Source: Acidobacteriota bacterium
Lineage (GTDB): Bacteria > Acidobacteriota > Terriglobia > Bryobacterales > Bryobacteraceae
Direction: 5' to 3'
Assembly (NCBI GenBank): GCA_029776225.1
Contig: JAKOTR010000053.1
Coordinates: forward strand, 124,001-188,000
DNA length: 64,000 nucleotides
The notes below the pieces were generated by a model. It worked only from the letters and a program-made list of their open reading frames with translations. It did no database searches and was not told where the DNA came from. The translations under genes were made by a program, and so were the position numbers. Below, one piece after another: positions 4,463 through 52,656 of the stretch (its first letter is position 1; each line of letters begins with the position of its first letter).

Positions 4463-4478
4463 GCGCGAGGAATTCCCT

Positions 4479-6316: not shown

Positions 6317-6467
6317 GGGCGGCCGAAAAGACTGCGCCGCTCCGGCCTGAAGGCACTCCCCGGGCGGGGAGGGCGGCATCGGTCTGAAGGTTGGCCGAAC
6401 CGTGGCGTTGTGGGGCGCCGTGGGTATTCCGGGCGCGGCCGGATATTTCGAAAATCGAGGGAGCGAG

Positions 6468-7010: not shown

Positions 7011-7090
7011 GCACCTCCGCGCGAGGACGGTTGCCTGAAGAGCGGCCTGAGCGATCCGCGGCGCCATCTCGCGCAGGCCGGGGCGCATTG

Positions 7091-7588: not shown

Positions 7589-7592
7589 GGAC

Positions 7593-7639
7593 AAAAAAGC
7601 GGGCTTCGCTCCCGGCCAAGGACCGGAAGCGAGGCCCGC
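7593..7639 (-). terminator. Rho-independent terminator for the receptor gene
   Basis: GCGGGCTTCGCTCCCGG (7599-7615) and CCGGAAGCGAGGCCCGC (7623-7639) form a 17-bp stem with two mismatches and a 7-base loop. Read on the minus strand it is followed by six T (7598-7593). It lies directly after the stop of the minus-strand receptor gene. Confidence 0.82.
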
Positions 7640-7660
7640 CGAAGCGTCAGGAACGAAGCG

Positions 7661-10600: not shown

Positions 10601-10927
10601 CAGGTTAGCGTCGACGCGCCGGATGTCCCGGGCCGAGAGCACTACGTTTTCCGCTTTAAACTCCTGAAAACCCGCGGCCCTGACGACGACCGTATAGGTG
10701 CCTTCCAGGATGTTGGCCAGCGTGTACTGGCCCGCTTCGTTGCTCGTAGTAGTGTATTTGTAGTTTCTCTCGATTTGGGTTGCCTCGATGGTGGCGCCCA
10801 CCACAACTGCTCCGGTGGGATCCTGGACAACCCCGGTGATTGTGGCAAAGGTGCTTTGGCCGTGTAGTGAGCTTGCAAAAAAGCAACACAACGTGGCCAA
10901 GGCAAGGCAGATACCTCTCATGCGCAT
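7661..10927 (-). CDS. Oar-like TonB-dependent receptor with carboxypeptidase-regulatory domain
   Basis: 1088 residues. A signal peptide (about 1-23, ending SLHGQ) is followed by a carboxypeptidase-regulatory-like fold (ITGVVQDPTGAVVVGA to about residue 105), then a plug-like region and a long outer-membrane beta-barrel. The protein ends in LHMRFEW, an aromatic terminal residue typical of barrels targeted to the BAM machinery. Segments such as ALTLISRSGTNEFHGNAAVY and TYTIRPTLLNEFRYGL are typical of the large Acidobacteriota receptor family. These receptors are thought to bind and import large substrates, perhaps glycans or peptides; the ligand here is unknown. It is monocistronic, with its own promoter (11055-11027) and terminator. 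Confidence 0.88.
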   Translation of the reverse strand: MRMRGICLALATLCCFFASSLHGQSTFATITGVVQDPTGAVVVGATIEATQIERNYKYTTTSNEAGQYTLANILEGTYTVVVRAAGFQEFKAENVVLSARDIRRVDANLALASSSTIVEVTAGATLIETESARIVDTRSREVMRALPLTLRRAWDYFTLTPQFERTGGWNLRLAGAGELQAEATMDGTTLSGAWGSPLGPMMDRTELVQEMRVDVAQANAESQTMGALTLISRSGTNEFHGNAAVYYSNNDLNSRNPFSLTKNKGWGYQWVFGAGGPIYLPKVYEGRNRTFFFWNLEIATGPTSPFTVQRVVPLNRWRQGDFSTYTGVIRDPLNNNAPFAGNVIPASRINPVAKMYQDMLIPDQNYGDPDTLIPGSPTYLRTYPGFPFVKQPTMSERIDHRISDKQFLYGRLTSVRWNFNQPETAFRELTPKRIHQRNMDAVTGAHTYTIRPTLLNEFRYGLTSQRYPQTSAWKGYEVVQQLGFIGLAPDIGEINGLPRVSFQRSGVASVNSPAECNPCDQHYVHSFSDTVSWFRGRHDMKFGWSSSRYLMQERRQSTALYGDFVFSGNFSGLDYADFLLGIPTTMTRAFPATQVNRVRWNHGFFFQDTFRPTPKLTLTLGLRWDAVLPWTEQNNFLAAFDEKTGKIVVPDAALSKVSPLMPTGYIDVIGASAAGYPANTLVRSDLNNWQPRLGFAYRPWDNNTVFRGGFGLAYNTAPPGVSTGAVVPFIISEPSYTNPQDNPLIWPVVYPSTGSGGPSTVSIPGSIAGDIRIPRVIQYSFAIEHQRWDTGFMIAYNANGTRHNTYSLPINRPVADDRLFIEKPRPFPLYPDISRTENGAGHQYHALTIQATRKSRGGLYYQTYFTWANDMTDETTPEDPTNRLREKARHDRQAKLRYSANAVWEIPVGRGRKFMSDAHWLVNGILGGWRLSSIVALESGRPLTVMWTGPDPTGTRYTTSSTRPNVTIRPDVLGDFTVDNPNQYLWFDKTKFAAPPIGRYGNAGRGILIGPGVRVMHNSLAKEFPIKERARLRFEVLARNTLNHPNWGNPDTNISNAGAGGIYSVLDLNSKFDAATPREVQLHMRFEW

Positions 10928-35929: not shown

Positions 35930-37858
35930 CTAGCTGCGGTAGCCATCCAGAAGCCGGTTAATTACGTCCTGGTGGATTTTGATTTTTCCGCTGCGGATCA
36001 ACGCAGTCCGCAGGGAATCCTGGAATAGCTCGGTGCGCTCCCGAGCTTTTCTCGCTTTGATCTGGGCGATCAACTCCTCGCGGCTTTCGGCAAGCTTGCT
36101 CATATCGGCCGGGGTCTTGCTCTCGACTTTGCAGATGAACCGCTTGTCCTCAACCGTCACGGGACCGAAAATGCTGCCCACCGGCTGTTCGAAGGCCTGG
36201 TATACAGCCGCCGCCGAGCCGATTCCGTCGGCCGCGCCGGTACGGGTGAACTCCTGGGTGGTCTTGACCTGGAGCCCCAGAGCCTGCGCCAGCTTCCTCA
36301 GGTCGCCGTTAAACTCTTTCGCCTTGTTGGCGGCCTCCTGCGCCTTTTGAGTGACTAACACAACGAGCTTTTGGGAAACCAGCTCAGCGCGAATCTGATT
36401 CTCCACTTCGGAAAGCTCGGCGTCGCGCGCCGGAAAGATCTCGGTCACCGTGGCTACGGCGAGCTTGTTGCCGGGAGCTTCGAAGACCGGGGTCACGCCG
36501 CCCTTGGCAAGCGCCCTGATGGTGTCCTCGAAGTCCGGATTCACGCCGACTTCGGGAATCTGGTCGCCCGCTCCCGCCTTCTCGACGTGCACGTAGGTGA
36601 CTCCCAGCTCCTGGGCGATCTGTTGCGCCGCGCCGGGGCTCTTCAGCAGGCGGTCGCGCGACTCATCGGCCAGGCGCTGCATAGTCTCGAAGACGCGCTG
36701 TTTCTTGCGCTCCTGCGCCAGTTGCTCCTTCACCTCTTCGAACGGCCTCAGGCGCGCGTTTTCCTTCTCAAGCACCTGGATGATATGAAAACCGTACTCG
36801 GTCGTGATGACATCGCTCAGCTCGTTCGGCTTCAGCGAGAACGCGGTGGATTCGAAGTTGGGGACCGTCTGGCCGCGCACAATCCAGCCAAGGTCGCCGC
36901 CTCGGGTGGCCGAACCGGGGTCTTCAGAGTTCTTCGTGGCGAGCGCGGCGAAATCGGCGCCCGCTTTGAGCTGCTTCAGCAGTTCTTCCGCTTTGGCCTT
37001 GATCTGCGGGACCTGGTCCTTGGGGACATCCGTTGTCTTCAGGAGGATGTGACGCACCCGCACACGCTCGGGCGTCCGGTACTGGTCCTTGTTGGCTTCG
37101 TAAGCCTGGCGCAACTCCGGCTCGGGAATGGTGATGGTCTTGGCGATCTTCTCTTCGGAAACCACCACGAGATCGATCGAGCGCTTTTCGGGAATGCGGT
37201 ACTGCGCCTTCCGGGTCTCGTAGTACTGGCGGATTTCCGCCGGCGAGACGAACACCTCGGAACGGTACCGTTCGGGGTTGATCTCGACGTAGCTGAGCTT
37301 TACTTTTTCGTTCCTGCTCTTGTACTCGGCCTCGATTTCGGCCGGGGTGACCACCACGCTCTGCGCCACCAGGTCCTGGAGCTTCGAAACCATCATTTCC
37401 GAGCGGACATTCGCCTCAAACTCGGGAATGGTCATGTTCTGCTGGGCCAGCAGCGAAGCGTATGCCTCCTTGCCGACGAACTGCCCGCCTTGGAAGAGCT
37501 GGGGAACGAGGACCTGCAAGCCGCGCGCCAGTTCGTCCGGGGTGACGTTCAAGCCGAGCCTCTGCGCTTCGTAGGCCATCACCTGCTCGAGGATCATCGA
37601 GTCGATGAATTGGGGAACGAGGGCCGGCAACATTTCCCGAGGAACGGATTGCGCCCTCTGGGCCATGTTGATCCGCTGCTGTACATCGCGGGCAGTCAAC
37701 ACCCGCTCACCGATCTCGGCAACTATCTGTTCCTGTCGCGTGCCAATGGTGCCGAAACCAGGGATCAGGGTGACCACCATCGAAATGGCCACCAACATTA
37801 ACAGCGCGCCGAGCAGGTAACGAACAGCCTTGGCCCGGCTGCGAAAGAGATCAAACAT
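35930..37858 (-). CDS. PpiD/SurA-like peptidylprolyl isomerase
   Basis: 642 residues. One N-terminal membrane anchor (about 13-35) is followed by a SurA-N-like helical domain (about 45-200), then a parvulin domain (about 265-365) with VRVRHILLKTTDVP, GADFAALATKNSEDPG and RGGDLGWIVRGQTVPNFE, ending YGFHIIQVL. A less conserved second half (400-642) resembles the degenerate C-terminal part of PpiD. It should act as a periplasmic chaperone for outer-membrane proteins, which fits the abundance of TonB receptors here. Confidence 0.88.
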   Translation of the reverse strand: MFDLFRSRAKAVRYLLGALLMLVAISMVVTLIPGFGTIGTRQEQIVAEIGERVLTARDVQQRINMAQRAQSVPREMLPALVPQFIDSMILEQVMAYEAQRLGLNVTPDELARGLQVLVPQLFQGGQFVGKEAYASLLAQQNMTIPEFEANVRSEMMVSKLQDLVAQSVVVTPAEIEAEYKSRNEKVKLSYVEINPERYRSEVFVSPAEIRQYYETRKAQYRIPEKRSIDLVVVSEEKIAKTITIPEPELRQAYEANKDQYRTPERVRVRHILLKTTDVPKDQVPQIKAKAEELLKQLKAGADFAALATKNSEDPGSATRGGDLGWIVRGQTVPNFESTAFSLKPNELSDVITTEYGFHIIQVLEKENARLRPFEEVKEQLAQERKKQRVFETMQRLADESRDRLLKSPGAAQQIAQELGVTYVHVEKAGAGDQIPEVGVNPDFEDTIRALAKGGVTPVFEAPGNKLAVATVTEIFPARDAELSEVENQIRAELVSQKLVVLVTQKAQEAANKAKEFNGDLRKLAQALGLQVKTTQEFTRTGAADGIGSAAAVYQAFEQPVGSIFGPVTVEDKRFICKVESKTPADMSKLAESREELIAQIKARKARERTELFQDSLRTALIRSGKIKIHQDVINRLLDGYRS

Positions 37859-38547: not shown

Positions 38548-38658
38548 CACACTTCCTCCTTGCAAATAGGATGCGGGATCCCGATTTCGGTGACAAGGCC
38601 AGAGGGCGCAGTAGCGCTGGAACTGCCGCCCGGAAACGGATATCCTTCCTTGGTGGCT

Positions 38659-40107
38659 ATGGCGAGCAACTCCCGAAGAGACTTCCTCCGCAGCCTGGGC
38701 GCGGCTGCGGTAGTGCGCGGCGCGGCGGCGGAAAGACCCAACATCCTCTTTATCATGGCGGACGACCACGCTTCGCACGCCATCTCCGCCTACGGCAGCA
38801 GGATCAACCGCACACCGAACATCGACCGGATCGCGGCCGGCGGCGTCCGGCTGGACAACTGCTTCTGCACAAACTCGATCTGCACGCCCAGCCGGGCGGC
38901 GATTCTCACCGGCCAGTACAGCCACAAGAACGGCGTGTACACGCTGGCGGACCGCTTCGACGGCAGCCGGAACCACGTCGTTAAGGAATTGCGGAACGTC
39001 GGTTATCAGACCGCGATCATCGGCAAGTGGCACCTCCACACCGATCCGACCGGGTTCGATTACTGGAACATTCTGCCGGGCCAGGGGGCGTATTACAACC
39101 CGGTGTTCATCGACCGCAGGCAGCAGAAGCAGCACCAGGGTTACTGCACCGACCTCATCGGCGATTTCACGCTGGACTGGCTCAAGCAGCGCGACCGGAA
39201 AAAGCCCTTCTTCCTGCTTTGCCACCACAAAGCGCCGCACCGGCCATGGGAACCGGCCCCTAAGTACGCGCGCCTTTTCGAGAACCAGAACATTCCCGAG
39301 CCGGATAACCTCTACGATCGCTTGGAAGGCCGCGCCCGCTGCGTAGCGGCAGTGCAGATGAAAGTGGGCGAGCACAACACCAAGAGGGACCTGAAGGTGG
39401 ACCGCCCCGCGGGTCTCGAAGGCGACGCGCTGCGCAAGTGGGCGTATCAGTACTACATCAAGGACTACCTGCGCTGCATACAGAGCGTGGACGACACCGT
39501 CGGCCGCCTGCTCGACTATCTGGACGAGGAAGGGATCGCGCACAACACCCTGGTCATTTACACTTCGGACCAGGGCTTCTTCCTCGGCGACCACGGCCTT
39601 TACGATAAGCGGCTCATGTACGAGGAGTGCCTGCGCATGCCGTTTCTGGCCCGGTATCCCGCGGGTATCAAGGCGGGCACGGTGAACAGTGACATCATCC
39701 TCAACATCGACTTCGCGCCGCTGTTCCTCGACTATGCGGGGGTGAAGCCGCCGGCGGAAATGCAAGGCCGCAGCTTCCGCGCGAACCTGGAGGGCCGCAC
39801 GCCGGGCGACTGGCGCACGTCAATGTATTACCGCTACTGGATGCACAACGACAACGATCACCACGTTCCCGCCAACTACGGCGTGCGGACCAAACGGTAC
39901 AAGCTGATCTACTACTACGGGAAGCCGCTCGGGATGGCGGGCGCCAACGAACCCGCGACGCCGCCGGAGTGGGAGCTGTTCGATCTCGAGAAAGATCCGC
40001 GCGAGATGCGCAACGTGTACCACGACCCGGCATACGCCTCCGTGGTGAAAGAGCTGAAGGCCGAACTGGCGCGCTTGCAGAAAGAGTTCGGGGATACGCC
40101 CGCCTGA
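38659..40107 (+). CDS. Exported sulfatase
   Basis: 482 residues from 38659; the longer open frame to 38560 lacks support. MASNSRRDFLRSLGAAAVVR is a Tat leader. The metal site begins NILFIMADDHASHA, and CTPSRAAILTGQYS carries the Cys that is converted to formylglycine in type I sulfatases (CxPSR). IGKWHL, the DQGFFLGDHGLYDKR segment and KRYKLIYYYG follow in the usual order. It removes sulfate from a glycan or other ester in the periplasm. The anaerobic or FGE-type maturase is not in the window. It is convergent with the CocE gene. Confidence 0.92.
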   Translation: MASNSRRDFLRSLGAAAVVRGAAAERPNILFIMADDHASHAISAYGSRINRTPNIDRIAAGGVRLDNCFCTNSICTPSRAAILTGQYSHKNGVYTLADRFDGSRNHVVKELRNVGYQTAIIGKWHLHTDPTGFDYWNILPGQGAYYNPVFIDRRQQKQHQGYCTDLIGDFTLDWLKQRDRKKPFFLLCHHKAPHRPWEPAPKYARLFENQNIPEPDNLYDRLEGRARCVAAVQMKVGEHNTKRDLKVDRPAGLEGDALRKWAYQYYIKDYLRCIQSVDDTVGRLLDYLDEEGIAHNTLVIYTSDQGFFLGDHGLYDKRLMYEECLRMPFLARYPAGIKAGTVNSDIILNIDFAPLFLDYAGVKPPAEMQGRSFRANLEGRTPGDWRTSMYYRYWMHNDNDHHVPANYGVRTKRYKLIYYYGKPLGMAGANEPATPPEWELFDLEKDPREMRNVYHDPAYASVVKELKAELARLQKEFGDTPA

Positions 40108-40118: not shown

Positions 40119-41966
40119 TTATGGCAGCACATTCACGCGGATCGACGACAGGTACGGCTTCGCGCGATAGACCCGCTGGGTGGCCTTTCGAAAGTCGGCT
40201 GGAGCGGCGCGGTGGATATCCACGAACTGTTGCGGGTTGCGATCCACCAGCGGGAACCACGAGCTTTGAATGTGCACCATGATCCGGTGCCCGCTGCGGA
40301 AGGTATGGTACACAGCGGGCATGGTGAACTCGATGCGAGTGACCTCGCCGGGCTTAAACGGCTCAGGTTTTTCGAAGCTGTTGCGATACCTGCCGCGGAA
40401 AGGTTCGCCGCGCACGAGCTGCTGGTAGCCGCCCATGCGAACGGGCCCCTGGGGGTCGTTGTCGGGATAGTTGCCGGGGTAAACGTCGATCAGCTTAACG
40501 ACCCAGTCCGAATCGGTTCCGGTGGTGGAGACGTAGAGAATGGGCCGCAGCGGGCCCGCGATGGTCACGTCCTCCTCCAGCGGCTCGCTTTCATACACGA
40601 GCACGTCGGTGCGCGAGGAGGCGAAGCGCTGGTCCGCCACCATGTACTCGCGCGGCATGCGCGTGCTTTGCCATCCGATGAAAGGCACCGGTTTGGCGGG
40701 GTCGCTGATGTATTCGTCGAAGGAGGCCCGTGATTCAGCCGGCGGCTCGAAGGAGAGTTTGCCGCCCGCGTGCAGGTAAAGAGGTTTTTCAACGGCTTCC
40801 TTGGGTGGCCAGGCATCGCACCGCCGCCACTGGTTGCGGCCCGTTTCGAAAACATAGGCCTCGGGCAGATCCAGTTCGCCCTTGTCGTTCAGGTAGTGAT
40901 TGAAGAACGGAAGCTCGATTTTCTCCCGGTAATAAAGCGACGTTTTCTGCCCAAAGCGCACGTCGCCCAGCGCGTCGCCGTCGGAGCGGGCCCATCCGCC
41001 GTGAAACCACGGCCCCATCACGAGCGTGTTGTGCAGGCCGGGATTGCGGCGTTCGATCGATTCGTAAACGGCCAGCGCGCCGTAAAGGTCCTCGGCGTCA
41101 AACCAGCCGCCAACAGTCATCATCGCGGGCTTGATTCTTTCCAGGTGCGGCAGGACGTTGCGGGACTTCCAGAACTCGTCGTACGTGTCGTGGCGCAGCA
41201 ATTCTTCCCAGAAGGGCACCCGCCCGTTGAAGTGGCGGGAGGTGATGGCGGCAAGCGGCCCCGAGCGGAGGAAGAAATCGTAGCCGTCCGGAGTGCCGTA
41301 ATCGAAGTCTTGCCAGCCGGCGGTGTTGGTGAACGCGGTCAGGAAGTAGAAGGCGTGCAGCAGGAAAAACGCGCCGTTATGACGCCAGTCGTCCCCGATG
41401 AACCAGTCCGCGATGGGCGCCTGCGGCGAACAGGCCTTAAGCGCGGGATGCGCATCCAGCGCGCCCATCACCGTATAAAAGCCCGGGTAGGAAATGCCCC
41501 ACATCCCCACGCGCCCGTTGTGGTTGGGCACGCGCTTCAGCAGCCACTCGATGGAATCGTAGGCGTCCGTGCTCTCGTCGATATCGCCGGGACCGCGCTT
41601 CACCGGCAGGTAGGGACGGGCATGGACGAACTCGCCTTCCGATTGCACCCGGCCGCGCACGTCCTGGTACACGAAGATGTAGCCCTCGCGCGCGAAGGCT
41701 TCGGAAGGACCGAGGCTGGACCTGTAGTTGTCCACGCCGTAAGGGGCGACGCTGTAGGGCGTCCGCGTGAACATGATCGGGTACTTGCGCGAGCCGTCCT
41801 TCGGAACATAGACGGAGGTAAAGAGGCGCTTGCCGTCGCGCATAGGCACGCGGAACTCGTATTTCGTGTAGTGCGCCTTGATGTACTCGAGTCCCTGCGC
41901 GTGCAGCGTGATGAGGCAGGCCGCCAGGGCAAGGACCAGCCTCGCAGTAAGGGATGCAAGTCCCAT
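40119..41966 (-). CDS. CocE/NonD-family hydrolase
   Basis: 615 residues. Signal peptide 1-23 (ending TLHAQ). The alpha/beta hydrolase core has the nucleophile Ser in GMWGISYPGFYTVMGALDA; Asp and His lie later (GGWFDAEDLYG and SGHRIMVHIQSSWFP). The C-terminal jelly-roll domain (about 380-600) is typical of X-prolyl dipeptidyl-peptidase/cocaine-esterase enzymes. It probably cleaves a peptide, amide or ester in the periplasm. It is the last gene of the co-oriented block from the sigma factor at 49488, 39 bp after the GH2 gene. Confidence 0.9.
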   Translation of the reverse strand: MGLASLTARLVLALAACLITLHAQGLEYIKAHYTKYEFRVPMRDGKRLFTSVYVPKDGSRKYPIMFTRTPYSVAPYGVDNYRSSLGPSEAFAREGYIFVYQDVRGRVQSEGEFVHARPYLPVKRGPGDIDESTDAYDSIEWLLKRVPNHNGRVGMWGISYPGFYTVMGALDAHPALKACSPQAPIADWFIGDDWRHNGAFFLLHAFYFLTAFTNTAGWQDFDYGTPDGYDFFLRSGPLAAITSRHFNGRVPFWEELLRHDTYDEFWKSRNVLPHLERIKPAMMTVGGWFDAEDLYGALAVYESIERRNPGLHNTLVMGPWFHGGWARSDGDALGDVRFGQKTSLYYREKIELPFFNHYLNDKGELDLPEAYVFETGRNQWRRCDAWPPKEAVEKPLYLHAGGKLSFEPPAESRASFDEYISDPAKPVPFIGWQSTRMPREYMVADQRFASSRTDVLVYESEPLEEDVTIAGPLRPILYVSTTGTDSDWVVKLIDVYPGNYPDNDPQGPVRMGGYQQLVRGEPFRGRYRNSFEKPEPFKPGEVTRIEFTMPAVYHTFRSGHRIMVHIQSSWFPLVDRNPQQFVDIHRAAPADFRKATQRVYRAKPYLSSIRVNVLP

Positions 41967-42005
41967 GAAGAGTAGAATACTGAGTTCCGGCCTTCCTGAT
42001 TTGGC

Positions 42006-44192
42006 TTACTTCGCCTTGGCCGCCTCAGCGGCGACAACGTTGAGCCGGCGTCGGCAGACGGTGGCCTCATCGGCTCTTTTGTGATCCGCAGAAGCGATTG
42101 CCTTTAGCATGTACTTCCCAGGAGTGGAGGGAAGCACCAGGGGGATATCGTAAATCTGCTGCCCGTTCGGCGGCACATAAAGAGGAATCTCCTCACGCGC
42201 CACTTCCTTGCCGCCGGCCGCTTCCACTACCAGGGCGAGTTTGCCCCTTGCCGCGCGGTATTCGTCGTTGATCACGATGATCCGGAAGTTTCGCCGCGAG
42301 CCGGCCTTCACCGACCGCTGGAAGAAATTCACGTAAACGCCGAGCGGATTGAAGGCGTGCGGCATATAGTCCGCGAAATGGGGTTCCAGCTCCAGGGTTT
42401 TTACGTCGCGGAAATTATCGGAGGTGAAGGCGCCGGGAAAACTTGCCGTAAGAAAAGTGAAATACAGGACGCCCGCCATGTTGCGGTGAGCCCGCCAGTA
42501 CTCCGTAATGGCGGCGAGCGAGTAGGCGTACTCCTCGAAGCGCTGTTGCGGTGTGGCGTCTTTCCCGAGGGCGGACGCGTAGACTTTCTCGGTGAGCGTG
42601 GTGGGCGTGCCGTCGCGATTGAGCCACAGCCACTCGTACTCGTTGATGATCTGGGCGTGCCCCTGAACTCTGGCCCCCGTGACTGCGCCGCCGCCCCTTT
42701 CGAGCTGCGTCAGATCCAGCCGCGAGCTGGTGAGATAGGGGTGCTGCTCGACCGGGTCGTCGGGTCCCGCGGGCGGGCTCCAGCCGTTTTCCCAGGGCCG
42801 GTTGGAGAGGTCGAGGTGGCGCACACTCGGGATGATTTTTTCCGCGAAGATGGGCGAAACGGTTTCGTTTTGCGCGTCCCAGATCACGACGCTGGGGTGA
42901 TTCCAGTTGTCGCGCATCCATTCGGCGTACTGCTTGACGACCTCGGCCGTATCCCACTCGTCGTGATAGGTCCAGATGAAGAACTCGTTCTGGATGAGCA
43001 GGCCCGCCTCGTCGGCAATGTCGAGCCAGAAGTCGGGCACCGGGCCGATGCAGAAGCGGAAACTGTTCCAGTGGAAGCGCTTCGGGAGTTCCACCAGCAG
43101 CTTCCGCACCCACTCCTCGCGCCAGGGGAGGTCGCCGCAGTCGGGGTCCTCAAAGAAGCGGTGGAGCGTGATGTTGGAGCCGCGCATGAAATAAACCTGG
43201 CCGTTCAGGTAGGCGCGCTTGGTGGCGCTGTCGAAGCGGAACTCGCGCATGCCAAAGCGCGTCAGCACATGGTCGCCGCCGGTGTTCGTCTCCAGTTGAT
43301 AGAGGAAAGGATTTTCGGGAGACCAGAGGACGGCTCCGGGGATCTTGATGGTCTGGGTCCAGGTTTTTTCCTCCCCGGCATCGAGGCTCACGACCGGCAT
43401 GCGGCTTTCGGCGACGATTTGCTGCTCCTTCCACGTGCGCACCCGCTGGATCAGTTCGAACAGGGCGGGCTTCGCGCCGTAGTTCCTGATGACGGTCTGC
43501 ACCACGATCTCCGACGAGCCGATGCGTGGCGCCACCTGCACGGTGCGGATCACCGGATTGTCGGAGAGCAACACGGAGACGCTGTCGTAGATGCCGGGCG
43601 TCCATTTCAGCTTTTCCAGATCGGTGCCGGCGGGGACGGTGACGGGCAAAACGGCCGGGTGAGCGCCGATGCGCACGACCAAGCGGTTCTCGCCGGTCCA
43701 ATTGATGGCCGGGGTCAGGTCGAAGTAGCCGGCGGTGAAGCACCCCAGGTGCTCGCCGATCTTTTTGCCGTTCAGCCAAACCGCCGTGCCGAACTGAGCT
43801 TTGTTGACCTTGAGGATGGCGATCTGTTTCCGTTCCGGCACGCGGAAGCTGGTGCGGTACCAGAAGTAGTTCCGCTTCTGCCTTGGGATCCCCACGGGGT
43901 GGGCTAGCGCTTCCGGTGTCGCCGGTCTCTTTACGAACGGATGGCGCAGCGATTCGCGGCTGTCGAACAGGTCCACATCCGGAAACGGCGGACGGGCGAG
44001 GTTGGCAAGGCCAGGCACCGGTCCGCGATGGCGGAACGCCGTGGGCATGTCGTCCGCGCCAATGCTCTCATCCACCTCCCACGTGCCGTCGAGGGAAACA
44101 ATCACGCGGCCGCTCGCAGCCGGCGCCGGAAACACAGCCAGGGTGGCGGCGGCCAGCAGCAGGAAATAGCGGCAAAACCCAAAACCAGCCAT
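42006..44192 (-). CDS. Glycoside hydrolase family 2 protein
   Basis: 728 residues from the ATG at 44192, with AAAGGAG 5 nt upstream; a GTG two codons earlier is an alternative. Signal peptide (about 1-27). Sugar-binding domain with FWYRTSFRVPE and WLNGKKIGEHLGCFTAGYFD, then an immunoglobulin-like domain, then a TIM barrel with YFMRGSNITLHRF, WNHPSVVIWDAQNET (Glu after Asn = acid/base) and INEYEWLW as the likely nucleophile strand. These are GH2 features; the exact specificity (galactosidase, mannosidase or other) is unknown. It lies 67 bp after the receptor gene, in the same direction. Confidence 0.85.
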   Translation of the reverse strand: MAGFGFCRYFLLLAAATLAVFPAPAASGRVIVSLDGTWEVDESIGADDMPTAFRHRGPVPGLANLARPPFPDVDLFDSRESLRHPFVKRPATPEALAHPVGIPRQKRNYFWYRTSFRVPERKQIAILKVNKAQFGTAVWLNGKKIGEHLGCFTAGYFDLTPAINWTGENRLVVRIGAHPAVLPVTVPAGTDLEKLKWTPGIYDSVSVLLSDNPVIRTVQVAPRIGSSEIVVQTVIRNYGAKPALFELIQRVRTWKEQQIVAESRMPVVSLDAGEEKTWTQTIKIPGAVLWSPENPFLYQLETNTGGDHVLTRFGMREFRFDSATKRAYLNGQVYFMRGSNITLHRFFEDPDCGDLPWREEWVRKLLVELPKRFHWNSFRFCIGPVPDFWLDIADEAGLLIQNEFFIWTYHDEWDTAEVVKQYAEWMRDNWNHPSVVIWDAQNETVSPIFAEKIIPSVRHLDLSNRPWENGWSPPAGPDDPVEQHPYLTSSRLDLTQLERGGGAVTGARVQGHAQIINEYEWLWLNRDGTPTTLTEKVYASALGKDATPQQRFEEYAYSLAAITEYWRAHRNMAGVLYFTFLTASFPGAFTSDNFRDVKTLELEPHFADYMPHAFNPLGVYVNFFQRSVKAGSRRNFRIIVINDEYRAARGKLALVVEAAGGKEVAREEIPLYVPPNGQQIYDIPLVLPSTPGKYMLKAIASADHKRADEATVCRRRLNVVAAEAAKAK

Positions 44193-44259
44193 GAACACTC
44201 CTTTCAGCCGAACAGCGGAATTTGGAATTTTTTCATCCTAACACTAGCGGGGGACGACG

Positions 44260-47200
44260 TCAGAACTCGAAGCGCAGACCCAGTTGAAGGGAGCGCGGCC
44301 CGCCCACCTGGAGCGCGGGGGCGAGGCCGCTGCTGGGGGTCCCGCTGCCGAGCATCAGGTTGAGCATGGAGGCCGGCCTGCCGAACAGGGGGCTGATGAG
44401 GAAACGCACCGGATCGCCGAAGTTGGGGTGATTCAGCGCGTTGAACGCTTCGAGGCGGAACTGAACGGCCGCGCGCTCGGAAAGTTGGAACTGGCGCCGC
44501 AGAGCGAGATCGAGCTGGTGCATGCCGAATCCGCCGATGGTGTTGCGGCCGAGGTTGCCCTGAACCAGGTCGCCGGGAGCCGAGAATGCGGCCTGGTTGA
44601 GCCGTGCGCCACCGGGCGCGTTGGGGTCGGCGATCCACACGGGCACGCCCGGGTTGAGGTCTGGCCGCACCACGTTGCTCATGTTGAGCCCGAAGGCATC
44701 GGGCCGCGTCAGCACGTCGATGGGGAAGCCTGTGCGGGCGCGAAACATGCCGTGGAGCGTCCAGCCGCGCGCAAGTCTGAACCGGGATTGCGGGAAATCG
44801 TAAGCGAACGCCGCGGCAAGCGAGTGGCGCACGTCGAAGTTCGAGGAGCCGCGGTCGCCTCTCGCACTGAAGCCCGGATGCACCAGGAGCAACGCCGAAC
44901 TCCAGGAGACGGTATCGATGGAATGCGACCAGGTATAGGACACGATGCCCTGCAATCCGCGGGCTGCCTTCCGCCGGTACTGCAACTGAAGCGCGTTGTA
45001 ATCGGACGAGCCGTGATTGGTGGCCACGGCGACCTCGACCGCCGCGATGTCCGGCCGCAGGTACACTTCGCGTCGCAGCAGCGCCCGTCCGGCCGAACCA
45101 AGATAGGAGACTGACGCTGCGCTCCCGCCGCTGAAGCCGTGTTCCAGGGTGACGTTCCACTCCACCGAGTAGGGCAGGCGCAGGCCGGGAGCAACGCCGT
45201 ATTGAATCAACACCGGCATCATGGACACCGAGCGCGCGGCGTAGGGCATTCCGAATGACATGCGCAGGCTGTTGAACGGAGCGCCATTGACCGCATCGGC
45301 CTGAGCGCTGAAGCCCGCGTCGTAATAGACGCCCGCTCCGGCGCGCAGCACCGTGCGGCCTTCCGCCGTCAACCCGTAAGCGATACCCAGCCTTGGTCCG
45401 AAATTCGCATAGCCCATCCGCCAGAGCGAGGCGCCCCGCCCCGGCACTTCGATGGCGTCGTGCGCGGTGGTGTCAGGACCGGCGGAACTCCGCACCGAGG
45501 GCGACGACGGGTTCAGTTCCCACCGCGAACCGTAAGTGACGGTGAGCCGCGGCCGCACGCGCCAGGTGTCCTGAACGAAGAACGATATGTTGCGCACGGC
45601 GGTCGAGACGCGGTCGGCTTCCGAGAATACCAGGAGCATGTCGCGATTCGCCGCCAGGTCGGCGAGGCTCTCGAATGTGACGCTGACGCTGTACGGCGGC
45701 CCTCCGCGGTGCAGCCGCAGGCGGCGGTAATCGCCTCCGAAACGGAACTGGTGCGGGCCCCGGTTCAGCGAGAACGTATTGACAACGTTGATTTGCCGCT
45801 CGCTGTTTCTGCCGGTTGCGCCAGTAATCAGCTGCCCGATGCCGGAGACCGTGAGCTGGTAGAACGATTTTTCGGGCGGCACCGCCACCGGCAGCGGAAG
45901 CCGCGAAAGATCCAACGGCACTGCCCCGCCCTCGTTGGTCGTCACCCATTCGCCGTCCACGGTGGTGTTCGTCGTGTTCACCCGCAGTTCGTTGATGAGC
46001 GACGGGGCGATCACGGCAGTCATTCCGGCGGTGATGCTTTCCGAAAGGAACACGGAGTGGTTGATCTGTGCGTAACCCGAGTCGGTTTCCGAGGGCGTCC
46101 GGCTGTAGCGAGCGAATACGTTGAGGCGCGGGCTGAAAGAATGATCGAGCCGGAAGCTGCCGGTGTCAAGCCGCGAAGGCCGCCATGCGGAGGCAGTGAG
46201 TTCCGCGAGCCCGTCGCCCAGGCTGCGTCCGTTAGGTTCGGGAAACGCGCGCAGAATCGGCTGTACGGCAGCGGGCGCCTGAAGCCGCAAGTCGTGCGAG
46301 GGCACCGGCGCGCTCCAGGTGAGCGGCTGCTTCAGGCGGAGCCCCTCGTAGGAGGCGAAGAAGAACGTGCGGTTGCGGCGCAGCGGCCCGCCGAGCACGC
46401 CTCCGAAATTGTTGTAGCGGAGAACACCCCGGCGCAGCCCGGCGGCATTGGCGAACCAGTCGTTGGCGGCGAGCGCCTCGTGGCGCAGGCTTTCGAATGC
46501 CGCACCGTGAAATTCGTTGGTGCCGGACCGGCTCGTGACGATCACCTGCGCCCCCGGCAGCCGGCCGAACTCCGGGGCAAAGCTCGAAGTGGCGATGCGG
46601 AATTCCTCAAGCGCCTCGATCGAGATCAGGTTGTGCGTGCTGCCCAGCGCCGTCATGCCGGGCAGCGAACCGCTGCTGAACTGCGCGGGAATCCCGGTGC
46701 CGCTGACGCCTGTGTTGGCGCTGATGCCGTCGAGGGTGAAGTAATTCGCGTTGGCGCGCTGGCCGTTGGCCGTGAACTGCCCAGCCTCGCCCGAAGTGGC
46801 AGGCGTCACCAGCACCCCGGGCGTCAGTTCGAGCAGCCCGACCAGGTTGCGGCCGTCCTGCGGCAGCGCCTCGATCATCTTGCGCCCCATCACCATCCCG
46901 ACCGAGCCGTCGTCGAGGTTCACCGGCGCGGGACCGCCGTCCACCGTGATCTCCTGCTCGGTGGGGCCCACTTGCAGCACGAAATCCACCTGCGCGGTCT
47001 GGGCGACTTCGAGCCGCAGGCCGAGGCGGACGATGGTCTGAAACCCCTCCTTGCGCACGGTCAGCTTGTATGTACCGGGCTGGAGCGAAGCGATGATGTA
47101 GACGCCCTCGTCGTTGGAGCGGCAGGTGCGGCGGATGCCCGTGGCCTGGTTCATCGCCGTGACAACGGCGCCGGGCACCACGGCCTCCGAAGAATCTCTG

Positions 47201-47280
47201 ATGACTCCGAAAACCTGGGCGAAATCCTGGGCTTTGAGTCCCGCCGACAGCAGAAGCAGGAGACTCGCCAGGACCCGCAT
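44260..47280 (-). CDS. Oar-like TonB-dependent receptor with carboxypeptidase-regulatory domain
   Basis: 1006 residues. Signal peptide 1-17 (ending LKAQ), regulatory-like fold (about 20-100; FGVIRDSSEAVVPGAVVTAM), plug region with MIEALPQDGRNLVGLLELTP and YFTLDGISANTG (about 135-190), then SRSGTNEFHGAAFE and a long beta barrel ending LGLRFEF with a terminal Phe. It lies one base inside the anti-sigma gene's stop (TAATG), so the two are translationally coupled. A receptor paired with its own sigma/anti-sigma genes suggests ligand-induced expression, as in FecA/SusC systems, but no N-terminal signalling (STN) domain is seen. Confidence 0.88.
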   Translation of the reverse strand: MRVLASLLLLLSAGLKAQDFAQVFGVIRDSSEAVVPGAVVTAMNQATGIRRTCRSNDEGVYIIASLQPGTYKLTVRKEGFQTIVRLGLRLEVAQTAQVDFVLQVGPTEQEITVDGGPAPVNLDDGSVGMVMGRKMIEALPQDGRNLVGLLELTPGVLVTPATSGEAGQFTANGQRANANYFTLDGISANTGVSGTGIPAQFSSGSLPGMTALGSTHNLISIEALEEFRIATSSFAPEFGRLPGAQVIVTSRSGTNEFHGAAFESLRHEALAANDWFANAAGLRRGVLRYNNFGGVLGGPLRRNRTFFFASYEGLRLKQPLTWSAPVPSHDLRLQAPAAVQPILRAFPEPNGRSLGDGLAELTASAWRPSRLDTGSFRLDHSFSPRLNVFARYSRTPSETDSGYAQINHSVFLSESITAGMTAVIAPSLINELRVNTTNTTVDGEWVTTNEGGAVPLDLSRLPLPVAVPPEKSFYQLTVSGIGQLITGATGRNSERQINVVNTFSLNRGPHQFRFGGDYRRLRLHRGGPPYSVSVTFESLADLAANRDMLLVFSEADRVSTAVRNISFFVQDTWRVRPRLTVTYGSRWELNPSSPSVRSSAGPDTTAHDAIEVPGRGASLWRMGYANFGPRLGIAYGLTAEGRTVLRAGAGVYYDAGFSAQADAVNGAPFNSLRMSFGMPYAARSVSMMPVLIQYGVAPGLRLPYSVEWNVTLEHGFSGGSAASVSYLGSAGRALLRREVYLRPDIAAVEVAVATNHGSSDYNALQLQYRRKAARGLQGIVSYTWSHSIDTVSWSSALLLVHPGFSARGDRGSSNFDVRHSLAAAFAYDFPQSRFRLARGWTLHGMFRARTGFPIDVLTRPDAFGLNMSNVVRPDLNPGVPVWIADPNAPGGARLNQAAFSAPGDLVQGNLGRNTIGGFGMHQLDLALRRQFQLSERAAVQFRLEAFNALNHPNFGDPVRFLISPLFGRPASMLNLMLGSGTPSSGLAPALQVGGPRSLQLGLRFEF

Positions 47281-48929
47281 TACGGCTGCCCTTCTTCGGC
47301 GCCCCCGTAAGCGTTCCGGTAGGCCGCGGAGAGCGCCTGAAGACGGCTCAGAGCGGCTGCAAGCTGTTGCGGAACCTGGGCGGGCGGCAGATCAGTGTTT
47401 GCGCCGGCAAGCAGGACGCTAATCAGATGGTCAGCTTGCTGGGCTGCAGCAAGGACCTGCCCGGTTGCTTCCTGCCAGCTTCCCGCCAGCGTCTCGTGCT
47501 GCGCCGGGGCGGCGGCAGCGCCAAGGGCCGCGAGCGCCGGACCCATCATTCCGGCCAGTTCGGAGATGGAGGCAGCCAGCGCCCGCGCGTGCCCGCCGCG
47601 CAGCGCCGCGAGCAGATCCAGGTCGCTCTTCGAGAGCCGGGCCTCTTCGGAAGCCGGAAAGCGCCGGGCGAGATTCTCGAGTGCGTGAGCGCGGGCGATC
47701 GCGGCGTCGCTCAGATCGAGCGCTCGGTTACTGAACTCCTCGAAGGCGAGTTGCCCGCCCACGGCGTTCTGAATTGCGGCCGCATGCGCCGGCGGGGAGA
47801 CGGCCACGGACAGGGCCGCGCCCGCGCCGCTTTCCTCTGGGCTCATGGGGCGCGGTTCCTGGAATCGCAGGCGCACCTGGGGCACGTGGGCGAGCGAGGC
47901 CCTCAACTGCTCCTGCCTCGCGGGGTCGATGCCGGTGCCGGTGACGAAGATTCCGTCCGGGCGGCGGGTGAGCTCGATCGGCTCTCCGAGGTCGGCGCCG
48001 ATCCGGTGAAGCGCCGCGAGGGCCTGCAATTCTTCGCTCGGCCCCGGCGCGGCCGGCGGTGCAGATGGCACAGGCTCGGGCGCCGCGGGAGGAGTGGCGC
48101 GCGCGATCTCATGGGCCGGCGCGGGCGGTTCGGGATCGGGCGCGGCGGCTTCGGTGATCTCCACGTAGTCGCTGTCGCGGAACTGAAAGGTGCCTTTGAC
48201 CGGGGTGAAATCGCGGGCGCGGAGCGTGATGGTGGCTTCCGCGAGGGCGCCGGCCGGGGTGGTGGTGCGTATCCGGTACAGGCTGGCGCCGCCGTCGCGC
48301 ACATTCTCCACCTCGTCGCGCTTTTCAGGAAGCTGATCGCGCCAGGAGGCGTAGGAACGCGCACTCAACGGGGCTTCCCAACTGTAGTTCGCCGAGGCAA
48401 AAAGCGCGCTCAGCGAGTCCTCACTCGCTCCGGCTTCGCGGGCGTAGACAGCGGGCCGGGTGAACGAGCGCGACCGCGTCCGCACCCGGATGTGCCGCGG
48501 GCCGCTGAAGGAGCTTTCCGAAGCAACGGCTTTCTGAAGCAGCTCCGCCGCGCTGGCTGAAGGAGTCATCCCGAAGCGGTAATACGCCAGGCAGGCCAGC
48601 AGGACGGCGGCTGCGGCGGAAATCCACCAGCGCGGAGCGTTCGCCGGCCGCATCCTCGCCCCAGCGGGCGCCTGCGCGCGGTCTTCCGCTTCCATCCGGC
48701 TGCGCAGATCGGCCCAGGGCCTCGGCGGCGGGGGCAGTTCGCTCTTGAGCGCTTCGTGGTACCGCACGTAGTCGCCGATCCCTTTTTGTAACTCCTCCAA
48801 CTGCGTGCGGCAGCTCCAGCACGCTTCCAGATGGCTGCGCACGGCCGCCGCCTTCCGCGACGGCAACTCGCCGTCCGCGAAACGCAGCAACTCGCCGCCG
48901 TCAGGATGGGGCGCATGGAATCTAGTCAC
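47280..48929 (-). CDS. Large zinc-finger anti-sigma factor
   Basis: 549 residues, far longer than a usual anti-sigma factor. The N-terminal zinc-binding anti-sigma domain is at about 1-55, with HLEACWSC giving H-x3-C-x2-C. One membrane segment (about 101-118; WISAAAAVLLACLAYYRF) follows. The periplasmic part begins SASAAELLQKAVASESSFSG and carries SYASWRDQLPEKRDEVEN, which recalls an RseB/lipoprotein-binding sensor; a Pro-rich stretch near 270-295 and an Ala-rich helical tail follow. It overlaps the sigma gene by 8 bp and the receptor gene by one. Sensor function of the long tail is inferred. Confidence 0.82.
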   Translation of the reverse strand: MTRFHAPHPDGGELLRFADGELPSRKAAAVRSHLEACWSCRTQLEELQKGIGDYVRYHEALKSELPPPPRPWADLRSRMEAEDRAQAPAGARMRPANAPRWWISAAAAVLLACLAYYRFGMTPSASAAELLQKAVASESSFSGPRHIRVRTRSRSFTRPAVYAREAGASEDSLSALFASANYSWEAPLSARSYASWRDQLPEKRDEVENVRDGGASLYRIRTTTPAGALAEATITLRARDFTPVKGTFQFRDSDYVEITEAAAPDPEPPAPAHEIARATPPAAPEPVPSAPPAAPGPSEELQALAALHRIGADLGEPIELTRRPDGIFVTGTGIDPARQEQLRASLAHVPQVRLRFQEPRPMSPEESGAGAALSVAVSPPAHAAAIQNAVGGQLAFEEFSNRALDLSDAAIARAHALENLARRFPASEEARLSKSDLDLLAALRGGHARALAASISELAGMMGPALAALGAAAAPAQHETLAGSWQEATGQVLAAAQQADHLISVLLAGANTDLPPAQVPQQLAAALSRLQALSAAYRNAYGGAEEGQP

Positions 48930-49488
48930 TGCTCGCCCTCCTTAATCTTGTGATCGCGCGGCGAAGGAACTCGCCGACCGTTGATGTGCCCACCCCGAGC
49001 ACCTCGGCGATCTCCTGGTAGCGGAGCCCCTCGGCGCGCAGGAAAAGGCAGATCTTCTGCTGCTCCGAGAGGTTTGCGACCGCGTTCCGCAACCGCGCCA
49101 TTTTTTCGCGCTCGATCAGCGCCTGCTCCGGGTTCCTGCCCGGAGCGGGAATGGAGCACTCCATCTCCGGCTCAAAGGGCAGACCGCTCTCCTGGCGCGC
49201 CCGGACGTTGAGCCCGAGGTTGTGAGCCACGCGGAATACCCAGGCCCGCGTGTTCCGGATCGCTTCGCCCTTCTTCAAAGCGACGTAAAGCCGCAGGAAG
49301 ATTTCCTGCGTGGTGTCCTGCGCCTGCGGAGGATGCAGGCCAAGCGTCAACAGGTAGCGGTAGACATCCTCGCGGGCTTCGATATACAAGCGCTCGGTTT
49401 CTTCTTGAAGCGGGTTCGCAGCGCCCTCCAAACCAAGGCTTTTTAAGGTCAGCTCTCCGATCCCGCTGTGCGCCGCCGATTCTGCCAT
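48922..49488 (-). CDS. ECF-family RNA polymerase sigma factor
   Basis: 188 residues. Region 2 has DTTQEIFLRLYVALKKGEAI and NTRAWVFRVAHNLGLN; region 4 has LSEQQKICLFLRAEGLRYQE and IAEVLGVGTSTVGEFLRRAI, an HTH. No region 3 is present, as expected for an ECF sigma. It should direct transcription of its own operon when released from the anti-sigma factor. It starts the block sigma, anti-sigma, TonB receptor, GH2, CocE. I found no clear copy of its target promoter in front of it. Confidence 0.92.
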   Translation of the reverse strand: MAESAAHSGIGELTLKSLGLEGAANPLQEETERLYIEAREDVYRYLLTLGLHPPQAQDTTQEIFLRLYVALKKGEAIRNTRAWVFRVAHNLGLNVRARQESGLPFEPEMECSIPAPGRNPEQALIEREKMARLRNAVANLSEQQKICLFLRAEGLRYQEIAEVLGVGTSTVGEFLRRAITRLRRASSD

Positions 49489-49948
49489 CGCCGTTGATAA
49501 TCTACTGCGTTCCTGGGTATAGCCTGGCCGCCCGGGACAAGCCAGGCATACACTCCGGCCTCCGTTTTCTTCTAAGACAGCCGGAAGACAATTTTAACGA
49601 CACAAAGCACTTCCTCGACACGCAACCCGGTGATTTGCAGGTGCTTGCCCAATGACGGCAGTTTCCCGGTGCGGATTTGGAGTGAGGGTGTCGTCAAAAC
49701 GGCCGGTGGAGGGTCTTAGGGGCGTCAGTGTGAACCGCCGGAGACTTTGGTTTCGGCTGGCGCCTGGTATCCAGGAAGAGGAAAATGGACGCGGGCCTCT
49801 TCAGGTTGCAACGCCGCCGGGTGGGTGGCTTACCGGGCGCGCCGACGCCGGGTCTCAGCCCGAACGCTCGGGCGCGCCGCATCGGGGGTGGTCTTCTGTT
49901 CCTTCCTGCCGGCCTCCGATGCGGCTGTCTCTTCAACGCAACCGCTCT
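49489..49948. other. Non-coding gap with an inverted repeat
   Basis: This 460-bp stretch separates the sigma gene from the convergent end of the M14 gene. GCCTGGC (49522-49528) and GCCAGGC (49541-49547) form an inverted repeat around a CCCGGG-containing loop. Short open frames between 49650 and 49950 on both strands show no protein-like features. I see no gene here. Confidence 0.45.
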
Positions 49949-52513
49949 CTATTGCAGTAAGGCATTAAACAGCAGCTTGTAAGTGCCGTGGGTCTGGGCG
50001 CGGTGCTGGGCGCGGAACCCGATCATCACCACCCGCCCGCTCTTATACTGCGCCGCCACCATCGCAGCCTTCTTCGCCAGCACTTGCTCTCCCACCAGCC
50101 AGCCGCTTTCAAGCACGTCGCGATCGGCATACCGCGCGATCACTTCATAGCGTTCGTTGTGCTGGTTCGGGATGATTTCAAACACAGGGTTGCCGCTCAG
50201 GTACACCGCCAGGCCCTCGCGCGGCATCCCATAGGCCAGCGGGTGGGAGTTGTCGAACACCGTACGCAGCGTCGAGCCGGGGCACCAGAATTCCCGGGAA
50301 CTCCTTCCCGCCACCGCGTTGCGGACGCTCAGTTCCAGCTTGTCAATCGCGAACTGGCTCGCATTGCCGAGCGTCACCAGTGTCCCGCCCTTTTCGACAA
50401 ACGTCTTGATCGCGGCCACGCCCTCGTTGCCGATGCCGCTGCGATACTCGGGCGGCGTAGTTTCATCCTCACGCGATCCGCCGCTGCTCTCGCCGGTGAT
50501 CATCGCGGTTGAATCGTTCGGCAGGATGATCACGTCATAGGCGGCGTTCAAATTGCCTTTTTTGATTTCGGCGTCCCTCAACGTGGTGTAGGGGAAACCG
50601 AACTGCTCGAGCACCAGGCGCGTCCAACCCTCGTCCATGTTTCCGCCCCTGTAGCGCTGGTACATGGCGGTGCGCAGCCGCTTGACCGGGTGTGTGTTCC
50701 CGCCGGGGGGCTGCGCGAGCGCCTTGAAACTCACGCCCGTGCTCCGCGCGACTTCGTCGAGGCCCGCAGCCGTGCCCACAATGAAATCGCCGGGCTCCAG
50801 GCCCTCCGATGACTTGTCCACGCGGCGCAGCGCGATCCCCTTGTCGAGCAACATGTTCGCGGCGCGGAAGCTGTCGTTCAGTCTGCCGCTGAAGGCGTAC
50901 CCCGCGGCACGGCCCGGCTCCACGGACCCTGCCGGCTCAACCGGCGACGTCACCTTTCTCAACCCGGCCTCGACGATCTCCTCCAGCGGATCCACACGCA
51001 CGCCCATGAACTCGAACATGGTGTCGGTGGCCATGTCGTAGGGCCGTATCGGGGAACCGTCGCGGTTGCGCGTCCACTCGTTATCGGGGTAGAACGTGCG
51101 GCCGAGCAGATAGCGGATCACGCCCATTTTGGGCTGCGCGAGCGAGACCACCCAAGAGCCCGCCGGGTAGTTCATCCCGCCCGCGGTGGTGAACCCTTTA
51201 GGCGCCTGCATGATCTCGATGCCTTGGTCCAGCAGCTTGTTGACGAGTTTCACAGCGGTCAGCGGATCGTGCTGGGCGCTGGGGATGACGTAGCCGGCCG
51301 GCTTGCCCTCGGCGCCGCGCGCGGTCTGCCGCTTCGCTTTCAGGTAGGCGTTCCAGAGCACGGTCTCGCGGTTTCGCGCCGCCAGATCGAGCAGGGCCCA
51401 GGCGGACGTTTTTTGCCGGTCGATAATATCGCGCAGTCTCCACCAGCCGCCCGGCCAGGGATTCGGAAAGACGGTCTGGACCTCGTAGGAGGGAAGGTTG
51501 CGCGCGCCGCCGCGCAGTTGATCAGGGTGAATGAAGATCGGCGTCGCCAGCTTCGTCGTGGCCGATTCCGTCAGCATTCCCGCGATGTTGTGGAACGGCG
51601 TGATCCAGTGGAACCCGAAGTGTCCCCAGCCGGAGTACTGCGCCATATTCAGCACGCCCGACTGCCCCGCCTCCTCCGCTTTGTAGGCCATGTGCGCGCC
51701 GTACCAGCTCATTTCGCGCCAGACCAGCGGGTCGGCGTGGGGCCGGATCGGCTCGGCGTACGGCGGCAGATAGATTCGCGCCCCGTAGCTGCCCATGTGG
51801 TGATGATCGAGATAGGCCTGCGGCACCCAGTCGCGAAACAGGAGCTTCCCCACGTACTGCGATTCCACGAGGTTCATTTGAAACGCGTCGCGGTTGTTAT
51901 CGTGACCGGCGTACTTGTGATAGAGCCACGGAAGATTGGTCCCCTCGTACTCCGTGCCGAGCGTTTTCTGGTACCAATCGTAGACCATGATTGCGCCGTC
52001 GGGATTGAACGAAGGCACCATGATGAAAATCACGTTGTCGAGGATGCGGCGCGTGTCCTCGCCGTTGTCCGTAACCAGGTCCCAGGCGAGTTCGGGCGCC
52101 ATCTGCGTGCCGCCGATTTCGGTGGCGTGCAGGCTCATCGTCTGGCAGATGACCGCGCGGCCCTCCGCGACGAGTCTCTTGACCTCCTGTTCCGTGAGCC
52201 CGCGCGGATCGCTGATCTTCAGGTTGATTTGCCTGAAGTGCTCGAGCCTCGCGATGTTCGCCGGCGACGAGATGAAGACGAACAGGAACGGATTCCCCTC
52301 CGTGGACGGCCCGGCATTCACCACGGCGAGCTTGCCCCCGCTCTCCTTTTCGAGCAAGCGGAAATACTCCACGATTTTGTCCCAGCGCGCCATCTTGCGG
52401 TCGGCGCCGAGCCGAAACCCGAAAAACTTTTCGGGAGATGTCACGTGCGTCTGCGCCGGGGCCAGCAGGCAGGCAAGGGCAGCCAGCAGGAGTAAGTTGA
52501 GTCTGCGTCTCAT
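49949..52513 (-). CDS. M14-family zinc carboxypeptidase
   Basis: 854 residues from 52513; a longer frame to 52639 is unlikely because the signal peptide MRRRLNLLLLAALACLLAPA starts here. The zinc site HxxE is in SLHATEIGGTQM; MVPSFNPDGAIMVYDWYQK and HDNNRDAFQMN are further family motifs, and LDHHHMGSYGARIYLPP a possible third ligand region. The last 350 residues contain a GATase1-like/ThuA-type region (NAAYDVIILPNDS to ALAYGMPREGLAVY). Such exported M14 peptidases are common in Acidobacteriota. Likely periplasmic peptide degradation. It is divergent from the histidine kinase. Confidence 0.88.
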   Translation of the reverse strand: MRRRLNLLLLAALACLLAPAQTHVTSPEKFFGFRLGADRKMARWDKIVEYFRLLEKESGGKLAVVNAGPSTEGNPFLFVFISSPANIARLEHFRQINLKISDPRGLTEQEVKRLVAEGRAVICQTMSLHATEIGGTQMAPELAWDLVTDNGEDTRRILDNVIFIMVPSFNPDGAIMVYDWYQKTLGTEYEGTNLPWLYHKYAGHDNNRDAFQMNLVESQYVGKLLFRDWVPQAYLDHHHMGSYGARIYLPPYAEPIRPHADPLVWREMSWYGAHMAYKAEEAGQSGVLNMAQYSGWGHFGFHWITPFHNIAGMLTESATTKLATPIFIHPDQLRGGARNLPSYEVQTVFPNPWPGGWWRLRDIIDRQKTSAWALLDLAARNRETVLWNAYLKAKRQTARGAEGKPAGYVIPSAQHDPLTAVKLVNKLLDQGIEIMQAPKGFTTAGGMNYPAGSWVVSLAQPKMGVIRYLLGRTFYPDNEWTRNRDGSPIRPYDMATDTMFEFMGVRVDPLEEIVEAGLRKVTSPVEPAGSVEPGRAAGYAFSGRLNDSFRAANMLLDKGIALRRVDKSSEGLEPGDFIVGTAAGLDEVARSTGVSFKALAQPPGGNTHPVKRLRTAMYQRYRGGNMDEGWTRLVLEQFGFPYTTLRDAEIKKGNLNAAYDVIILPNDSTAMITGESSGGSREDETTPPEYRSGIGNEGVAAIKTFVEKGGTLVTLGNASQFAIDKLELSVRNAVAGRSSREFWCPGSTLRTVFDNSHPLAYGMPREGLAVYLSGNPVFEIIPNQHNERYEVIARYADRDVLESGWLVGEQVLAKKAAMVAAQYKSGRVVMIGFRAQHRAQTHGTYKLLFNALLQ

Positions 52514-52595
52514 GGCGGTCTCCGTGGTAGCAGGAGTGTAACACAGGCCGGAATGAGCGAGAGGCTGTTTGCCCGAGTTTCGGCGAGTCTGCGGC

Positions 52596-52622
52596 TTGAC
52601 TCCGGCACGCCGCGGGTAGGAT
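52596..52622 (+). promoter_or_regulatory. Candidate promoter of the kinase operon
   Basis: TTGACT (52596-52601), 15 bp, TAGGAT (52617-52622). The ATG is at 52657. The 15-bp spacing matches other boxes in this window (11095 and 12545). Confidence 0.45.
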
Positions 52623-52656
52623 AAACGAGTGTCGGGCAACGAAGCTGGGTCCTTTT

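Follow-up and report, generated by a model that had tools for sequence, protein, structure and literature searches.

An ECF sigma factor, a membrane anti-sigma factor with a zf-HC2 domain and an Oar-class TonB-dependent receptor together form, as judged by sequence comparison, a conserved three-gene module of the Bryobacteraceae. We consider it probable, at roughly 60%, that this is an autoregulated envelope-signalling module, one that would probably control the display of proteins or glycans at the cell surface and not the import of glycans.

Results

Organization of the locus

The window, by which we mean the whole stretch of 64,000 nucleotides that was analysed, comes from a 5.18-Mb genome that is 98% complete. 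The first-pass annotation had described a block of five co-oriented genes, with overlaps at two of the junctions. All five minus-strand open reading frames were confirmed, with their families backed by Pfam and NCBIfam, and the coordinates of the reading frames likewise bear out both overlaps, 8 bp between the sigma and anti-sigma genes and 1 bp between the anti-sigma and receptor genes. Gaps of 61 bp and 39 bp separate the receptor gene from the GH2 gene and the GH2 gene from the CocE gene, respectively. The features are as follows:

49688-49719, plus strand: second, divergent copy of the predicted promoter, GTGTCGTCAAAACGGCCGGTGGAGGGTCTTAG, which faces a GT2 gene in most relatives
49572-49603, minus strand: promoter predicted for the sigma operon (ECF type), GTGTCGTTAAAATTGTCTTCCGGCTGTCTTAG; the sigma start codon follows 83 bp downstream
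48922-49488, minus strand: ECF sigma factor, 188 aa, with Sigma70_r2 at residues 37-99 and Sigma70_r4_2 at 132-182 (Pfam, NCBIfam)
47280-48929, minus strand: membrane anti-sigma factor, 549 aa (Pfam zf-HC2, AlphaFold2 folds, orthologs)
44260-47280, minus strand: Oar-class TonB-dependent receptor, 1006 aa (Pfam domains, TonB-box-like motif, orthologs)
42006-44198, minus strand: GH2-family glycoside hydrolase, 730 aa, with signal peptide (Pfam, NCBIfam; local to this species)
40119-41966, minus strand: CocE/NonD-type S15 hydrolase, 615 aa, with signal peptide (Pfam, NCBIfam; local to this species)

Convergent with the CocE gene lies a gene for a sulfatase with an SGSH_C domain (38560-40107, plus strand), and a SurA/PpiD-like peptidyl-prolyl isomerase with a SurA N-terminal domain is encoded about 2 kb from the CocE gene (35930-37858, minus strand). 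Upstream of the sigma gene are a gene for an M14 carboxypeptidase (49949-52639, minus strand) and, divergent from it, one for a CHASE3-GAF-GAF histidine kinase (52657-55197, plus strand).

The conserved unit

Relatives were sought with an alignment query, a single-protein query of contigs having returned none. We read the neighbourhoods of 40 anti-sigma loci and of 46 more from a second collection, the genomes of which are partly the same (about 85 loci). The named relatives belong to the Bryobacterales, Bryobacteraceae or Solibacteraceae of the Acidobacteriota, and on their evidence the host was assigned to the Bryobacterales and Bryobacteraceae. Full-length relatives of the anti-sigma factor (520-580 aa, 35-55% identity) occur in about one third of the 101 family genomes, sigma orthologs (41-68% identity) adjoin the anti-sigma gene in nearly all relatives, and the order sigma, anti-sigma, Oar-type receptor is seen in most of the approximately 85 loci. 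The overlap of the sigma and anti-sigma genes is 8 bp in most relatives and 4 bp in several; because the 8-bp overlap is found again so widely, it is conserved and not due to chance.

Both the anti-sigma factor and the receptor are present in 32 of the 101 family genomes, the anti-sigma factor only in 1, the receptor only in 5 and neither in 63 (Fisher p = 6e-20, an optimistic value because the table counts related genomes as independent). At the chosen cut-off, the receptor is thus found in 32 of the 33 genomes with the anti-sigma factor, and in the exception, G035, it is truncated at a contig end. Where no receptor gene adjoins the locus, a receptor ortholog is encoded elsewhere in the genomes checked. 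The distance matrices are similar (r = 0.88-0.93), which may reflect shared descent only.

The genes 3′ of the receptor gene vary between genomes, and no relative examined, the two congeners included, has GH2 or CocE adjacent to the trio. GH2 orthologs (55-60% identity) occur in five other genera, elsewhere in the genome and alone, and are absent from the two congeners; CocE orthologs occur in many genera, in other places, alone and never beside GH2 orthologs. A five-gene unit was rejected on this synteny, and the unit is therefore one of three genes. In this species, read-through from the operon may carry transcription into the GH2 and CocE genes that follow it, but the two are not members of the module.

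A promoter motif upstream of the sigma gene

The two-part motif GTGT[AC]GTTG-N15-16-GGTCTT[TA]G lies upstream of the sigma gene in most relatives. The dyad was present in up to 16 of 58 sigma upstream regions, as compared with a shuffled maximum of 4, and it is often doubled, back to back; a GT2 glycosyltransferase gene (at least 57% identity) is divergent from the sigma gene in 24 of 33 loci. A sigma-ward copy with no more than 2 mismatches was found in 20 of the 33 loci but in only 2.7% of random windows. The 13 loci that lack a recognisable sigma-ward copy include those of divergent paralogs and of both congeners, in which a gene for a Soli_cterm protein lies between the promoter and the sigma gene, so that the promoter stands in front of that upstream gene. 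A remnant of this gene between promoter and sigma gene in the window was considered but found no support in the alignment, which showed conservation of the promoter blocks only.

Both copies in the window match the search pattern with 0 mismatches, and the 5.18-Mb genome contains no other exact match. No obvious plus-strand gene lies behind the divergent copy (49688-49719) in the window. Counts of sigma-70 promoters and terminators within the five-gene block were indistinguishable from those in shuffled sequence.

The strict form of the motif was searched for in 60 genomes and was found in 23 of the 40 with the module or a related one and in 0 of the 20 others (p = 4e-6); the genus of the window departs from the strict form, with the genus-specific variant GTGTCGTYAAAAY...TGTCTTAG, and is not among the 23. 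Because the strict form is confined to module genomes among the 60, the motif is tied to the sigma factor. We infer, with good support, that the sigma factor recognises this promoter, and in recognising the copy upstream of its own gene it would autoregulate. The self-regulation suggested by the first-pass annotation thus gains a likely basis in the pair of conserved ECF-type promoters that immediately precedes the sigma gene.

Predicted targets

In the genomes of relatives, 19 strict sites were found at places other than the sigma promoter. Six of these precede genes for secreted proteins with a Soli_cterm domain (TIGR03437), as compared with 3 of about 640 background genes near the loci (p = 2e-8). 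Another 3 precede beta-propeller or HAF-repeat proteins, 6 precede proteins read from sequence as multi-pass membrane proteins, 2 precede small proteins read in the same way as beta-barrel-like, and 2 precede proteins without a family. Three of the six multi-pass proteins match PMT glycosyltransferases, one clearly and two below the curated cut-off. No glycoside hydrolases, general envelope-stress genes, or siderophore or iron genes were found among the predicted targets, which suggest an output concerned with the cell surface and its glycosylation. Soli_cterm proteins were noted behind a predicted ECF promoter at loci L186, L188, L193, L220, L221, L226, L229 and L234.

The search of the window's own genome, which was for exact matches to the pattern, yielded the operon as the sole target. 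For this species the prediction is limited to the operon, with GH2 and CocE possibly reached by read-through.

The anti-sigma factor

Along the anti-sigma factor are a zf-HC2 domain (residues 1-62), a transmembrane helix (about 100-121), a LolA/RseB-like domain (122-262), a proline-rich linker (263-296), a domain like BON or ring-building domains (297-358) and a helical bundle (382-541). The zf-HC2 domain matches RsiW and ChrR, and, as in the ZAS-type (zf-HC2) ECF anti-sigma factors, the zinc motif HxxxCxxC precedes a single membrane helix; H33, C37 and C40 are invariant in 33 orthologs. The periplasmic part, said in the first-pass annotation to be very long, does comprise about 430 residues and is multi-domain by its predicted fold. 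AlphaFold2 modelling on the 33 orthologs gave a pLDDT of 86, and of 92 for residues 286-549 alone.

In the predicted fold, residues 122-262 match a LolA-like protein of Bacteroides, 4mxt (VIA-align Z 12.8, rmsd 5.6, 131 residues), and RseB 2p4b (Z 10.2, rmsd 7.7, 131 residues), both rmsd values being high; other RseB and MucB entries gave Z 8.6-8.7 at 3.9-4.3 Å, among them RseB 3m4w (Z 8.6 at 3.9 Å over 120 residues). Residues 297-358 match BonA (Z 7.1) and YscD (Z 6.9 at 2.0 Å) with middling scores, and the model of this part appears to resemble a BON or ring-building domain, which is a weaker call than the LolA-like one. The helical bundle gave no specific fold match, only middling Z scores. 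A domain search of residues 120-549, as the first-pass annotation had proposed, had a divided outcome: no sequence homolog of the periplasmic part was found in PDB or Pfam, where matches did not extend beyond zf-HC2, whereas the predicted folds point to the LolA/RseB-like and BON-like domains. FecR is absent from the 33 orthologs, which have zf-HC2 as their sole common Pfam domain, and a remote kinship of fold may still exist; nor are there FecR- or STN-like structures among the fold matches, which does not prove their absence.

Eight of 11 divergent relatives lack exactly the LolA-like domain and keep everything else. The Oar gene adjoins in seven of these eight short forms, and the eighth lies at a contig end. 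Because the short relatives lose only the LolA-like domain and keep Oar, these data suggest that the BON-like and helical part is the core of the anti-sigma factor and the LolA-like part a cassette.

The Oar-class receptor

The receptor consists of a signal peptide, a CarboxypepD_reg domain (23-103), a TonB-box-like motif, a plug (a weak match, just below its cut-off) and a PF25183 barrel. The mature N-terminus leads directly into CarboxypepD_reg, and the TonB-box-like EITVDG just after this domain is conserved as ETITVEG in orthologs. The first-pass annotation had noted that the receptor lacks an STN domain, a point that stands: the Pfam scan found none in the receptor, and a whole-genome search found 0 (controls were positive in 4 of 14 genomes). 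It had further suggested that signal sensing might have moved from the receptor to the anti-sigma factor. Oar-class receptors, however, normally carry an N-terminal CarboxypepD_reg extension, not STN (PMC6434023). Because the whole genome is without STN and has more than 40 Oar-type (PF25183) genes in its 5.2 Mb, the absence of STN is the normal Oar architecture and general here, and is no demonstration of such a move. Another of these Oar-type genes is in the window (7661-10927, minus strand).

Unlinked receptor orthologs in six genomes were all without the module's promoter. The receptor need therefore not depend on the sigma factor, and strict dependence found no support.

Discussion

We propose that the zinc-finger (ZAS-type) anti-sigma factor holds the ECF sigma factor at the inner membrane and that the co-encoded Oar-class protein forms a barrel in the outer membrane. 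In relatives, the sigma factor would probably also drive the divergent GT2 gene and a few genes for Soli_cterm proteins, beta-propeller proteins and PMT-type membrane glycosyltransferases, so that the output would be the display of proteins or glycans at the cell surface. The anti-sigma factor might read the state or cargo of the Oar barrel through the BON-like and helical part, the portion common to all relatives; a lipid- or lipoprotein-type input might come in addition from the LolA/RseB-like domain, and regulated proteolysis might then free the sigma factor. The sensing mechanism, including any contact between receptor and anti-sigma factor, is hypothetical.

One could envision instead that the first-pass annotation was right in seeing a locus analogous to the polysaccharide utilization loci (PULs) of Bacteroidota, in which a glycan fragment enters through the receptor and is degraded in the periplasm by GH2 and the CocE esterase, the sigma pair inducing all five genes in the presence of the glycan. 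As in the SusC/SusD loci, an ECF/anti-sigma pair is encoded adjacent to a TonB-dependent receptor whose N-terminus is of the CarboxypepD_reg type, and in this species hydrolase genes follow the receptor gene. The five genes are co-oriented and nowhere more than 61 bp apart, both hydrolases have signal peptides, their catalytic motifs are apparently kept (NE and EYEW in GH2, GISYPG in CocE, by sequence reading), and terminator-like sites, no more frequent in the block than in shuffles, are missing from the receptor-GH2 and GH2-CocE gaps. The import-and-degradation account nevertheless finds no support beyond a possible local read-through. It rests on two passenger genes, which in every relative examined, congeners included, lie apart from the trio; moreover, the predicted regulon is one of glycosyltransferases and surface proteins, and, unlike Bacteroidota PULs, the locus has no SusD, its five genes being all of other families, no conserved hydrolases, and no STN or FecR. 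We regard it as distinctly improbable. Surface signalling of the FecI-FecR-FecA type (or FpvI/FpvR/FpvA, PupI/PupR/PupB) for iron or another chelate, with CarboxypepD_reg in place of STN, is hardly credible. The logic of gene order is the same, an ECF sigma factor, a membrane anti-sigma factor with a large periplasmic part and a co-encoded TonB-dependent receptor with a conserved TonB-box-like motif, and the periplasmic beta-rich lobe, linker and small alpha/beta lobe are loosely like the two-lobed part of PupR (PMC9249621). The module differs, however, in having no STN, in the receptor or, with positive controls run, in the whole genome, no FecR domain in the 33 orthologs, a zf-HC2 cytoplasmic domain, and another predicted regulon, without siderophore or iron genes.

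A further alternative, unlikely but deserving serious consideration, is envelope-stress signalling like that of RseA-RseB (MucA-MucB) in the sigma-E pathway, in which the fused LolA-like domain would sense mislocalised lipid or lipoprotein and Oar would be a mere output without a sensing role. The fold matches to LolA, RseB and MucB (Z up to 12.8 and 10.2), the link of such a periplasmic domain to a transmembrane anti-sigma factor, the kinship of zf-HC2 with RsiW and ChrR, and the retention of a single module per genome in many genera, its predicted targets being few, all speak for it. In the module, however, the LolA-like domain is fused in cis after the membrane helix, whereas the RseB-type sensor is a separate soluble protein; there are additional BON-like and helical domains, an Oar receptor in the ECF operon, and very few predicted promoters, with no general envelope-stress genes behind them. 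It is also precisely the LolA-like domain that eight relatives lack, seven of them with Oar adjoining, and the anti-sigma factor and receptor co-occur even when unlinked. 

Like the receptor, Oar of Myxococcus xanthus has a CarboxypepD_reg extension, plug, TonB box and barrel and no STN, and it is a TonB-dependent transporter required for secretion of the PopC protease, not for import (PMC6434023); import by the Bryobacteraceae receptor, which unlike M. xanthus Oar is linked to an ECF/anti-sigma pair, is therefore not to be assumed. A specific version of the proposed module, which we judge quite unlikely, is that Soli_cterm surface proteins are secreted or assembled at the surface through the Oar barrel, that the BON-like and helical domains read the occupancy of this channel, and that the sigma factor adjusts the production and glycosylation of surface proteins to export capacity. 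If this were true, the module would be an ECF switch coupled to export, whereas the known ones are coupled to import.

A literature search that covered few subscription papers found no description of the module, of an anti-sigma factor with a LolA domain or of TIGR03437. An ECF group number for the sigma factor may already exist; the full ECF re-classification was not among the literature found. The architecture is that of a receptor-linked ECF system without STN or FecR, and it links one of more than 40 Oar-type receptors with a sigma factor of its own, for which a promoter and a small regulon open to checking are predicted. The module thus provides a direct approach to the function of an Oar protein in Acidobacteriota, and a functional lead for the Soli_cterm domain. 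A second, divergent set is present in the same genome (L071, G000:C81:50000-68000, positions 2209-9866), with an ECF sigma factor (31% identity), a 589-aa zf-HC2 anti-sigma factor and an Oar gene nearby, which suggests that the pairing of a long anti-sigma factor with Oar recurs with paralogs.
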